Source: Ignavibacteria bacterium (GTDB taxonomy: Bacteria; Bacteroidota; Ignavibacteria; Kapaibacteriales; Kapaibacteriaceae). Taken from it: DNA of 64,000 nt. Each line of letters begins with the position of its first letter. Position 1 is the first letter of the stretch. The notes under the pieces were generated by a model. The model was not told where the DNA came from. It did not search any database and worked only from the letters and a program-made list of their open reading frames with translations. Below are positions 5,360 through 56,045 of the stretch, piece after piece. Where the stretch lies: contig JACPPD010000008.1 of NCBI GenBank assembly GCA_016191145.1, positions 1 through 64,000 of the forward strand. Direction: 5' to 3'. Made by a program: the position numbers and the translations under genes.

Positions 5360-6634
5360 TTACTTAGTGCCTGATAAAAATTCAATAAATACCACAGACT
5401 GGTTGTAATCGCTGAGCGTTTGCAAGTGACCTTCCCTGATGGCAATTGCCTTTTGCAATGCGATAAGGTATTCAGCATAGCCGATGTCACCGTTTCGGAA
5501 AGCCGCTTCAGCCTGTTTAAGTAGTAAGTCGGCGTTCGGCAGAGCTGAGGTCTTATAGTAGTCCAGGCTGTTTTTATTCTTTGTGTATGACTGAAAAGCT
5601 TGTTGGAACACACCCCGCAGAGTCTGACTGTAATATTCATAGCTACTTTGCGCGGCCTGTCGAGTGAGTTCCGCAGCCTGAATTCTGCCCTGATGAGGAA
5701 CAAACCAAAGTGGGACAGCCAGACCAACCTGAAAGCCGACGAAGCGGTCGCCAGTTTTTGCCAACCTACCGGAAGATCTGTCTATGGTTCCGATCAGCGT
5801 TTGGTTAAAGTAGCCCAACGAAATATCGGGACCGGTCTTCGCAATCTCCAATGCTTTTCGATTTGATTCAACTTCGGTTTGCTTCTGCATAAATGCTATG
5901 GCTGGATTGGATTGCAAGGCCGCAGAATCTGAAATGATGGTGAACGACAGCTCCTTCCATTCAGATTGATCAGCGCTGGGAAGCACGTTACTGTTCAGCA
6001 GCACCTGAAGCTGAGCGCGAACAGCGGCTAGGTCTGCCTGGTTGGATGCGAGTTGATTCCTCACTTCGTTTAGCTGCGTTGCTGCAGTAGTACGCTCCAG
6101 CAAGTTGGATTCTCCAGTAGTGTACCGCAGGGAGGCAGATTTACGAAAGCCTTCATAGATGCTGTCCTGCTGCATTAATAAATTTTGCTTAGCCTGTAGA
6201 AAGGCAAGCTGGAAGTACACTCTTTTTACGTTGAAGGCTAATTCATTCTCGATCGCCTTTTTTTTCAACTCACTCGATTCCAAAAGTGAACTGTTAAGCG
6301 TGCCTTGACTACCAAATGCAGTGAAAGGAATCGTCTGCGAAATTGTGAGGTTATTGTCCTCCCTTACGAAACTGTTGTACTGGCCATACACCAGAGAGAC
6401 AAACGTTTTCGGTAAATCAACTGCAGTTTTTAATAATGCCCGTTGTGCTTCAGTTTCGTAAAAAGATGCTTTTAACCCGCTGTTACTCTTCAGTGCTGTC
6501 TCTATTGCCTGTTTGAGCGAGAATACCTGTTGCGATGAGCAGGGAAGTGCAGACGCCAAGATTGTCACTATCAAACAATACCTCTTCATGACGTAGATAC
6601 GTGAGTAGTTGTTATCTTTATTGAAAGTTTTCAT
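5360..6634 (-). CDS. TolC-family outer membrane efflux protein (CzcC/CusC-like)
   Basis: Signal peptide, SLKQAIETALKSNSGLKA and C-terminal AEAAFRNGDIGYAEYLIALQKAIAIREGHLQTLSDYNQSVVFIEFLSG typical of OEP family. Confidence 0.88.
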   Translation of the reverse strand: MKTFNKDNNYSRIYVMKRYCLIVTILASALPCSSQQVFSLKQAIETALKSNSGLKASFYETEAQRALLKTAVDLPKTFVSLVYGQYNSFVREDNNLTISQTIPFTAFGSQGTLNSSLLESSELKKKAIENELAFNVKRVYFQLAFLQAKQNLLMQQDSIYEGFRKSASLRYTTGESNLLERTTAATQLNEVRNQLASNQADLAAVRAQLQVLLNSNVLPSADQSEWKELSFTIISDSAALQSNPAIAFMQKQTEVESNRKALEIAKTGPDISLGYFNQTLIGTIDRSSGRLAKTGDRFVGFQVGLAVPLWFVPHQGRIQAAELTRQAAQSSYEYYSQTLRGVFQQAFQSYTKNKNSLDYYKTSALPNADLLLKQAEAAFRNGDIGYAEYLIALQKAIAIREGHLQTLSDYNQSVVFIEFLSGTK

Positions 6635-10401: not shown

Positions 10402-10506
10402 CAACTTGCCCGGCAGCATATGCCTCCCGGCATCTTACCCGGCAGCATATGTCTCCCGGCAACTTACCCGGCAACTTACCCGGCAGCATATATCTCCCGG
10501 CAACTT
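10402..10506 (-). repeat. CCCGGCA-type repeat array downstream of the RAYT gene
   Basis: CCCGGCAGCATATGCCTCCCGGCATCTTACCCGGCAGCATATGTCTCCCGGCAACTTA... 12- and 17-bp spacing of CCCGGCA. Confidence 0.88.
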
Positions 10507-10524
10507 GAAAAAATGTAAACTCCT

Positions 10525-11118
10525 TTATAACAAGTGCATTTCTGCCAAATCATTTACGAACTGTAAATGTTTGATTAAAGCCACATCATCTTCATTTTGA
10601 ACAAATCGCGAATAATTATGGGACCCACCAAACAGATCATTAATTACCGTGTGTGCAGTCTGGATTTTGTTTCTTTTTCCAACACACTCTGCAAATGTTG
10701 AATAGGGCCAATCGGCCGGATCCGTTACTAGTGCAGCCTTCACCGGATTGAGGTGTATGTAACGGCATAGCTGCTTAAAGTACGCGTCATCGTGGACATG
10801 TTTGCAATGGTATCTGCCTTCGAAAATCGTTCCTGTGCGTCTATGATATTTATTTACCTTTCTTGAAAAGACTCCGCATAACATTCGCATGAAATGCGGG
10901 AGATTACCATCTTGATCTATAGATACTATCAGGTGGAAGTGATTCGGCATAAGGCAAATAGCCACCAATTTGATTTTATAGATCTGAGCATAATAAGTCG
11001 CAAGTTGTAAAAACAGGTCATATAGTGCTGGGCCTAGAAATAGTGAAAATCGCAGCGCACCTCGATTAAACACATGATAGTAGTGTCCAGTGACGAGAGA
11101 TGTTTTTCTAAAGGGCAT
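10525..11118 (-). mobile_element. REP-associated tyrosine (Y1/IS200-like) transposase, RAYT
   Basis: YYHVFNRG, CLMPNHFHLIV (HUH), RRTGTIFEGRYHCKHVHDDAYFKQLCRYIHLNPVKAALV, standard RAYT/Y1_Tnp signatures. Confidence 0.93.
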
Positions 11119-11175
11119 GGTAATGTCTCAGCTATTATGTGCGATGTGTCCCTTGCAAGGCAGCTTGTGACACCT

Positions 11176-11292
11176 TGCCGGGAGGCATATGCCTCCCGGC
11201 ATCTTACCCGGCAGCATATCTCTCCCGGCATCTTACCCGGCAGCATATCTCTCCCGGCATCTTACCCGGCAGCATATGCCTCCCGGCAACAT
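11176..11292 (-). repeat. CCCGGCA-type 29-bp tandem repeat array upstream of RAYT, starting with a perfect 26-bp palindrome
   Basis: TGCCGGGAGGCATATGCCTCCCGGCA then repeated ATCTTACCCGGCAGCATATCTCTCCCGGC units. Confidence 0.9.
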
Positions 11293-23855: not shown

Positions 23856-24128
23856 GTTCAGGGTTCCAGGTTCAGGGTTCAAAGTTCAGGGTTCCAGGTT
23901 CAAAGTTCAGGGTTCCAGGTTCAGGGTTCAAAGTTCAAGGTTCAGGGTTCCAGGTTCAAAGTTCAGGGTTCCAGGTTCAGGGTTCAGGGTTCCAGGTTCA
24001 GGGTTCAGGGTTCAAAGTTCCAAGTTCAAAGTTCAGGGTTCAAGGTTCAGGGTTCAAAGTTCCAAGTTCAAAGTTCAGGGTTCAAAGTTCAGGGTTCAAA
24101 GTTCCATGTTCAAAGTTCAGGGTTCCAA
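23856..24128 (+). repeat. Heptanucleotide tandem array, 39 units of GTTC(AGG/AAA/CAG/CAA/AAG/CAT)
   Basis: Parsed unit by unit, no phase break across 273 bp. Confidence 0.95.
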
Positions 24129-24459
24129 GGTAGTGCCACGTGCCACAATAGAGCCCTGTGGTCAGCAATGCGCGGATCGGGGGAATGCAAACAGCCTCCA
24201 AATGATAAATGAAATGAAATGACATGCCAGGACCGTGCACCCATACATGGAATACCACGAACCTGGATCGTTGAACCGTAGACACACGGCTCATGATAAC
24301 GGACTAATGCTACCATTACAGGAAGATCGCGGATAAACAACTATCGCGCAACTCAACGAATACTCAACAGCAATTTGAGGCCATCCATACTCGTGATACT
24401 GCCGACAGCCATTTATAGGGGTTTAGAGGAGTATAAATAAATATATTTAGTATTAAGTC

Positions 24460-24732
24460 CCTGAACTTGGAACCCTGAACTTTGAACTTGGAACTTTGAA
24501 CCCTGAACTTTGAACCCTGAACCCTGAACCCTGAACCTGGAACCCTGAACCCTGAACCCTGAACCCTGAACTTGGAACTTTGAACTTTGAACCCTGAACC
24601 CTGAACCCTGAACCTGGAACCCTGAACCCTGAACCCTGAACTTGGAACTTTGAACCCTGAACTTGGAACTTTGAACCCTGAACTTGGAACTTTGAACCCT
24701 GAACCCTGAACCTGGAACCCTGAACCCTGAAC
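24460..24732 (-). repeat. Inverted heptanucleotide tandem array, 39 units of (CCT/TTT/TTG/CTG)GAAC
   Basis: Parsed unit by unit; opposite orientation to the array at 23856-24128 and same total length (273 bp). Confidence 0.95.
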
Positions 24733-24771
24733 CCTTCACCTGGCACCGGGCACAATGCCTACATTTGCCTG

Positions 24772-55757: not shown

Positions 55758-55976
55758 GGTTTCCCCGGATTCAAATCGACAAGATTCGGAACATACGAAA
55801 AATGAAAAACTACCCGCCCCTTAACATGAAAAGGGTAGACTTTCAGGTTCAACGCATGAAAGCCGACGGCATCAAAATCTTAGGGTAACTGGGATAGGTT
55901 AATCCGACGGAAGAGGGCGAACACTCCCTTCAGTGCTGCACCCGGAAGTTGCGTGTATGGAATCGAAAAAATCACG

Positions 55977-56004
55977 ATGCCGGGTATCAAGAGATACCCG
56001 GCAT
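55977..56004. repeat. Second copy of hairpin element ATGCCGGGTATC-AAGA-GATACCCGGCAT
   Basis: 12-bp perfect stem; opposite orientation (loop AAGA versus TCTT) to copy at 1061-1100. Confidence 0.88.
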
Positions 56005-56045
56005 GGTTTTCCGGCGAAGATGCCGGCAGATAACCTTCCTAACCG

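Follow-up and report, generated by a model that had tools for sequence, protein, structure and literature searches.

How RAYTs spread or maintain the repeats that accompany them is an unsolved question in the field, and the GTAG motif is usually deemed central to recognition. The locus described here brings this question into focus, as a RAYT gene lies between tandem arrays of a repeat in whose units, and at the foot of whose palindrome, inspection revealed no GTAG. It is situated in a window of 64,000 nucleotides (the whole stretch of DNA that was analysed) on contig C3 of an Ignavibacteria genome of 2.47 Mb in 19 contigs, hereafter G000. What, then, ties this enzyme to the repeats on either side of it?

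The RAYT gene and its protein

The gene (10525 to 11118, minus strand) encodes a Y1 HUH protein of 197 amino acids, whose membership of the RAYT / TnpAREP family, with intact catalytic motifs and the TnpAREP fold, is supported by profile matches, motif alignment and an AlphaFold model. It matches Pfam Y1_Tnp (3.4e-14) and scores 88.4 bits against NCBIfam NF047646 (REP_Tyr_transpos, REP-associated tyrosine transposase), above the cut-off of 80, which bears out an earlier sequence-only reading of this open frame as a Y1/RAYT gene. In the alignment, the motif N59-H60-F-H62 and the YIHLNP motif with the catalytic Y120 are invariant or nearly so across the family. The AlphaFold model has a pLDDT of 90.9, and its best match in the PDB is E. 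coli TnpAREP (4er8; 1.7e-8, TM 0.65/0.76). F100 occupies the position of W94 of E. coli TnpAREP, and the positions aligned to E100, H101 and R104 of that protein are changed as well; these altered GTAG-contact residues are consistent with the absence of GTAG from the repeats.

The domain search returned Y1_Tnp alone for the window RAYT, with no C-terminal HTH, and Bac_DnaA_C is present in four of the five long RAYT relatives tested. Defence-system annotation of the protein gave no result. Between the start of the gene and the array on its 5' side lies the motif GTCAC (11167 to 11171, minus strand), which all 11 RAYTs of the family, as against 8 of 80 other RAYTs, have 53-108 nt ahead of the start codon, and which may serve as a promoter or a cleavage guide.

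Repeat arrays in the window and across the genome

The repeat of the window RAYT, a CCCGGCA-type repeat of 12/17 bp, is referred to here as family A. Its 3'-side array (10402 to 10506, plus strand) holds seven CCCGGCA heptamers, all on the plus strand between 10409 and 10502, with spacings of 17/12/17/12/12/17, while the 5'-side array (11176 to 11292, plus strand) consists of one inverted heptamer followed by seven direct ones on the plus strand within 11195-11288. The inverted opening unit, TGCCGGG at 11176, contributes to a perfect 26-bp palindrome, TGCCGGGAGGCATATGCCTCCCGGCA, at the end of the array (11176 to 11201); array ends with a palindrome of this kind number four in the genome. The sequence-only reading had correctly placed the arrays 18 bp from the gene on the 3' side and 57 bp on the 5' side, and had recognised in both the 29-bp unit of 12+17 bp. 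Its claim that the two arrays share one orientation holds for seven of the eight units on the 5' side but not for the inverted unit, which it had missed together with a third array in the window. This solo array (314 to 472) carries ten heptamers on the minus strand, adjoins a run of related 12-bp CCGGGACAATGA units and is also present, with fewer units, at the orthologous site of a related genome, G001.

A genome-wide search, which that reading had called for, yielded 124 matches to the 24-mer core CCCGGCAGCATATNNCTCCCGGCA with at most two mismatches, against 0 for the reversed control. The arrays of family A, of which some 40 were inspected in G000 (39 base by base, the solo array of the window among them), are intergenic, and by a simple and crude ORF rule the open frames that overlap them are short or reach the array solely with their N-terminal end. 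Heptamers are spaced by 17 in 113 cases and by 12 in 96, the steps alternating near-strictly (12-17, 86; 17-12, 80; 12-12, 3), and the ends of the arrays fall inside units. Array strand, compared with skew to look for a link with the lagging strand, showed no relation to GC, TA or coding skew (p 0.34, 0.34 and 1.0), in a comparison of little power because the contig skew is near zero. Among 60 relatives, family A is limited to G000 and G001; a single match with three mismatches in G031 is taken as chance, and four of the five same-genus genomes do not have the repeat.

Could an IS200-like gene and a simple tandem repeat have become neighbours by chance? Adjacency, and nothing more, speaks for such an explanation, which is already refuted by the 124 units against none in the control and by the same enclosure, with other repeats, in relatives; we give it practically no credence.

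Folding of the arrays and the paralogous RAYTs

When folded by DNA energy parameters and compared with shuffles, the 5'-side array can form one 119-nt hairpin with an end stem of 18-19 bp (z -6.8 on the plus and -8.7 on the minus strand; 0 of 200 shuffles as good), and the 3'-side array reaches a z of about -4 to -5 on the TGCCGGG strand. On that strand the median z of the family A arrays is -4.6 versus about 0 for flanks, and 33 of 34 arrays lie below -2. The direct orientation of the units is compatible with hairpins because CCGG is self-complementary and GCATAT(GC) lies at the middle of the 17-bp spacer. Thus, the earlier contrast between this repeat and the classical GTAG-hairpin REP can be upheld for the missing GTAG and the changed GTAG-contact residues but not for the hairpin, as nearly all the arrays are predicted to fold in ssDNA.

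The genome encodes three RAYTs, and that of the window is 58% identical to the other two, RAYT-B and RAYT-C, which are both enclosed by arrays of the 12-bp GCCGGGAGAAAC (family B, 60 matches in G000). These arrays have a z of about 0 and fold no better than shuffles. With foldable and non-foldable arrays beside sister RAYTs in one genome, it can be tested directly how a repeat is recognised and whether a hairpin is required. At G000:C2:82000-98000 (L080), two paralogous RAYTs are found 7.5 kb apart, and at least seven family B arrays within 12 kb form a local cluster, as opposed to the dispersed family A.

Pairing of RAYTs and repeats in relatives

All flanking repeats of the relatives were searched together in twelve genomes. 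The RAYTs of eight to nine relatives are each paired with a repeat of their own, most of them CCGGG-cored: TGCCGGGCAAC 11-mers in G008, 28-bp units in G017, ATCCGGGATTACTCATCCCGGAT in G002, TGCCGGGAAAGTATAGTTCCCGGCA in G015 and G018, GTGCCGGGGTGTTCACACCCCGGCAC in G005 (seen upstream only within the stretch read) and CTCCCCGGCAGGAA in G006. Matches per RAYT-bearing genome numbered 42, 75, 27, 61, 17, 17, 5, 6 and 6 (range 5-75), the few in G015, G018 and G006 being largely the flanking copies themselves. Among the matches listed, each repeat was confined to the genome of its own RAYT, save that of G017, which has a weaker match in the related G019. G003, G004 and G007, which gave no RAYT hit, had 0 repeat matches, and G004 is a complete genome of the same genus with neither RAYT nor repeat.

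Because the RAYTs of the relatives are flanked by repeats that differ from one RAYT to the next yet follow one general plan, enzyme and repeat are, to judge from these sequences, evidently co-evolving as matched pairs. The locus and its relatives offer natural pairs whose protein and repeat have changed together, with only the CCGGG core retained. The association of RAYT and repeat put forward in the sequence-only reading gains from these pairs in the genomes of nine relatives, with REP_Tyr_transpos above its cut-off. That reading had also held that abundant repeats in relatives without a RAYT would speak against it; such a situation is encountered in G001 alone, where 67 repeat units occur and a RAYT was not found in an assembly that is 80% complete and in 300 contigs, and not in G004.

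The pairing extends to a broader sample of 90 usable RAYT loci (76 short and 14 long proteins), compared for an exact repeat of at least 14 nt shared by the flanks. Of the 76 short RAYTs, 50 have such a repeat on both sides (41 direct), as do 5 of the 14 long ones (one direct), compared with 4 of 400 mismatched flank pairs that served as a control. In Patescibacteria and Chloroflexota, many short RAYTs are seen between direct copies of GTAG-less perfect palindromes (loci L101-L176), for example CTAAGGGTCCGACCCTTAG and CCCGGAAACTTCGAGTTTCCGGG.

Turnover of arrays at fixed sites

About 15 array sites are common to G000 and G001, with flanks mostly 84-96% identical. Between orthologous arrays the number of heptamers differs in 12 of 14, in several of the 14 the whole spacer variant has been switched, and one orthologous site has a family A array in G001 and a family B array in the same orientation in G000. 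Moreover, the 5-nt spacers of the 12-bp units are identical in 74% of pairs within an array versus 12% between arrays. Spacer homogeneity, change in unit number and family swap therefore show that units were replaced and re-amplified in place, and the comparison of the two genomes shows arrays that, by their sequences, evolve in concert at fixed sites. Such turnover would be expected with a repeat-specific nuclease, and slippage or recombination could be contributing.

The ~15 conserved sites, the intergenic placement and the one-strand folding would also suit arrays that the host has adopted as protein-binding or RNA-stabilising elements under selection, the RAYT merely supplying or editing them; the roles proposed are in the nucleoid, with gyrase or as 3'-end hairpins, as for the BIMEs of E. 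coli. However, a repeat that is missing altogether from four of five same-genus genomes, that is exchanged for another family at one orthologous site and whose unit number varies at most sites makes this explanation improbable.

The site of the window RAYT is occupied in G001 by an unrelated open frame of ~190 aa (G001:C222, L180 about 5590-6220), noted as alternative cargo at one intergenic site; G001 was thereby ruled out as a clean empty site for the RAYT locus. Conversely, no clean empty sites in G000 were resolved for the arrays of G001. Several tracts of the two genomes are 96-100% identical against a background of about 85-90% (L055/L092, L049/L086, L056/L190 and L067/L189), suggesting recent recombination or shared DNA. 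At L072/L182, an array with ~70 nt seems to interrupt a terminator-like hairpin, which G001 has in unbroken form, and a GAAACAGCAACGGCTCC-like sequence is found on both sides.

A MITE-like composite element

Around ten arrays have in common, in diverged copies, a left body of 85 nt with the terminal sequence GTAGTGTCTCAGTTTGA. In the element at G000:C3:91.5k (L053 820-1110; also L044), this sequence makes up 17-bp terminal inverted repeats, GTATTGTCTCAGTTTGA/ATAGTGTCTCAGTTTGA, the inverted copy closing the right end. This is the one site at which a clean array insertion was resolved: G001 has the intact site without the element, and the target GCATTAAGCT is duplicated in G000 over 10 bp (up to 13). 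Target duplication is not known for Y1 enzymes. The duplication points to DDE-type transposition of a MITE with the array as a passenger, and some arrays would be carried passively in this manner. The left body gave no Rfam match, only neighbouring tRNAs being found; the end sequence pairs at two places only, and a transposase, and with it an autonomous copy of the MITE, was not found.

Taken further, these observations would allow the arrays to spread and turn over independently of the RAYT, by a DDE-mobilised MITE together with recombination and slippage, leaving the RAYT a bystander or a relic. The element at C3:91.5k and the other arrays with the 85-nt body fit this account, as do the G001 arrays without a detected RAYT. 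However, about three quarters of the inspected arrays are without the body, and the account predicts neither a RAYT-specific repeat on both sides of every RAYT lineage nor a repeat identity that switches with RAYT identity, as it does in nine genomes and among the paralogues. We therefore regard it as unlikely.

A model for the locus

The best explanation, which we hold to be probable, is that the locus is REPtron-like but non-GTAG, with a domesticated single-copy Y1 nuclease residing between copies of its cognate dispersed repeat. It draws on the identity of the RAYT, the dispersal of the repeat, the pairing of the two, concerted evolution, folding and the breadth of the arrangement among short RAYTs. 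E. coli TnpAREP and others bind folded ssDNA REPs in a strand-specific manner and cleave nearby (PMC8266576), and by analogy we infer cleavage and mobilisation of the arrays by the window RAYT.

An array would become single-stranded, probably on the lagging-strand template, and the RAYT would bind hairpins of self-complementary CCGG cores around the GCATATGC dyad, CCGG-based folds replacing GTAG plus hairpin and the chemistry presumably being that of TnpAREP. It would then nick beside a unit via Y120 and transfer the strand, which could copy, swap or seed units and so homogenise the arrays, while the flanking copies would keep the RAYT linked with its repeat. In addition, some arrays would be moved passively by the DDE-type MITE. 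Counted against this REPtron-like reading are the units of G001 without a RAYT, though its assembly is incomplete; the target duplication of DDE type, in place of a Y1 signature, at the sole clean insertion; the 12-bp arrays of RAYT-B/C, which fold no better than shuffles; the lack of array strand bias with GC skew, where there was little power; and the capacity of slippage or RecA recombination to bring about concerted tandem evolution without a RAYT.

Relation to known systems

REPtrons with GTAG-REPs are those of E. coli (group 2 / subclass 2.2) and of Pseudomonas and Stenotrophomonas (group 3 / subclass 2.5). As in these, a single-copy Y1 HUH protein with a Y---NP motif is enclosed by its own repeat family, the repeats are intergenic and dispersed, and each RAYT has its own family; both flanks of the window RAYT are indeed formed by a dispersed, RAYT-specific repeat. 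Unlike REPtrons, the GTAG (GT[AG]G) foot is missing from the hairpins of family A, W94 is replaced by F, the E100/H101/R104 positions are changed, and the repeats form tandem 12/17-bp arrays in place of single hairpins or inverted pairs. The single-strand hairpin that marks a REP is found in family A (33/34) and not in family B.

In TIRtrons/TIRYTs the repeats are inverted, many with GGGGWSAS (Di Nocera et al., 2013; PMC3733652). These repeats, too, lack GTAG and flank a RAYT-like gene, and some are partly self-complementary with dispersed copies, whereas the flanks here are mainly direct and CCGGG-cored; those HTH-bearing relatives whose inverted flanks are of the GGGGTCA type belong to a clade of their own. 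Subclass 2.1 (RAYT group 1) has a C-terminal HTH and no REP-like flanks reported (Quentin et al., 2018; PMC6006769). The window RAYT resembles it in NH[YF]H, F for W and Y[IV]HLNP, but is without an HTH and is enclosed by repeats. With subclass 2.6 (RAYT group 5, mostly Bacteroidetes) it shares atypical non-GTAG flanks, copies elsewhere and a similar length; WQ and YIH[QN]NP there contrast with FE and YIHLNP here, and the supported 22-row clade that contains the window RAYT does not include the Bacteroidota YIHQNP relatives. IS200/IS605 elements are marked by several nearly identical copies of the transposase (mean identity 99.4%) and a Y---Q motif; an insertion sequence of this type was excluded by the three RAYTs, the window's at 58%, and by the Y---NP motif.

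In a RAYT tree built without named reference members of subclasses 2.1-2.8, the HTH-bearing long RAYTs form their own clade (99/91), and another clade (100/98) unites the window RAYT with short proteins from its own family and from Chloroflexota and Planctomycetota. Repeat-flanked RAYTs are seen also outside the subclasses described as REP-associated. We tentatively propose, as a possibility that is rather less than even, that short RAYTs with F for W94 constitute an unrecognised subclass spanning phyla (Bacteroidota/Ignavibacteria, Chloroflexota, Patescibacteria and Planctomycetota), whose GTAG-less repeats diverge freely about a short palindrome at their core, CCGG in this case, and of which some, such as RAYT-B/C, act on non-palindromic 12-bp tandem direct repeats. 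If this were true, array amplification and not hairpin transposition would be the activity of RAYT-B/C-like members.

Other repeats in the window

A third repeat family, of the classical palindromic kind, ATGCCGGGTATC(AAGA)GATACCCGGCAT, is present at 1066-1095 and 55976-56005 of the window and also at L045, L048 and L073. It is repeated in G001 too, no RAYT has been assigned to it, and it is possibly an orphan REP family. The window further contains two long tandem arrays, at 23856-24129 and 24459-24735, made up of 39.6 copies of the 7-bp CCCTGAA and 20 copies of its 14-bp relative GTTCAGGGTTCAAA.
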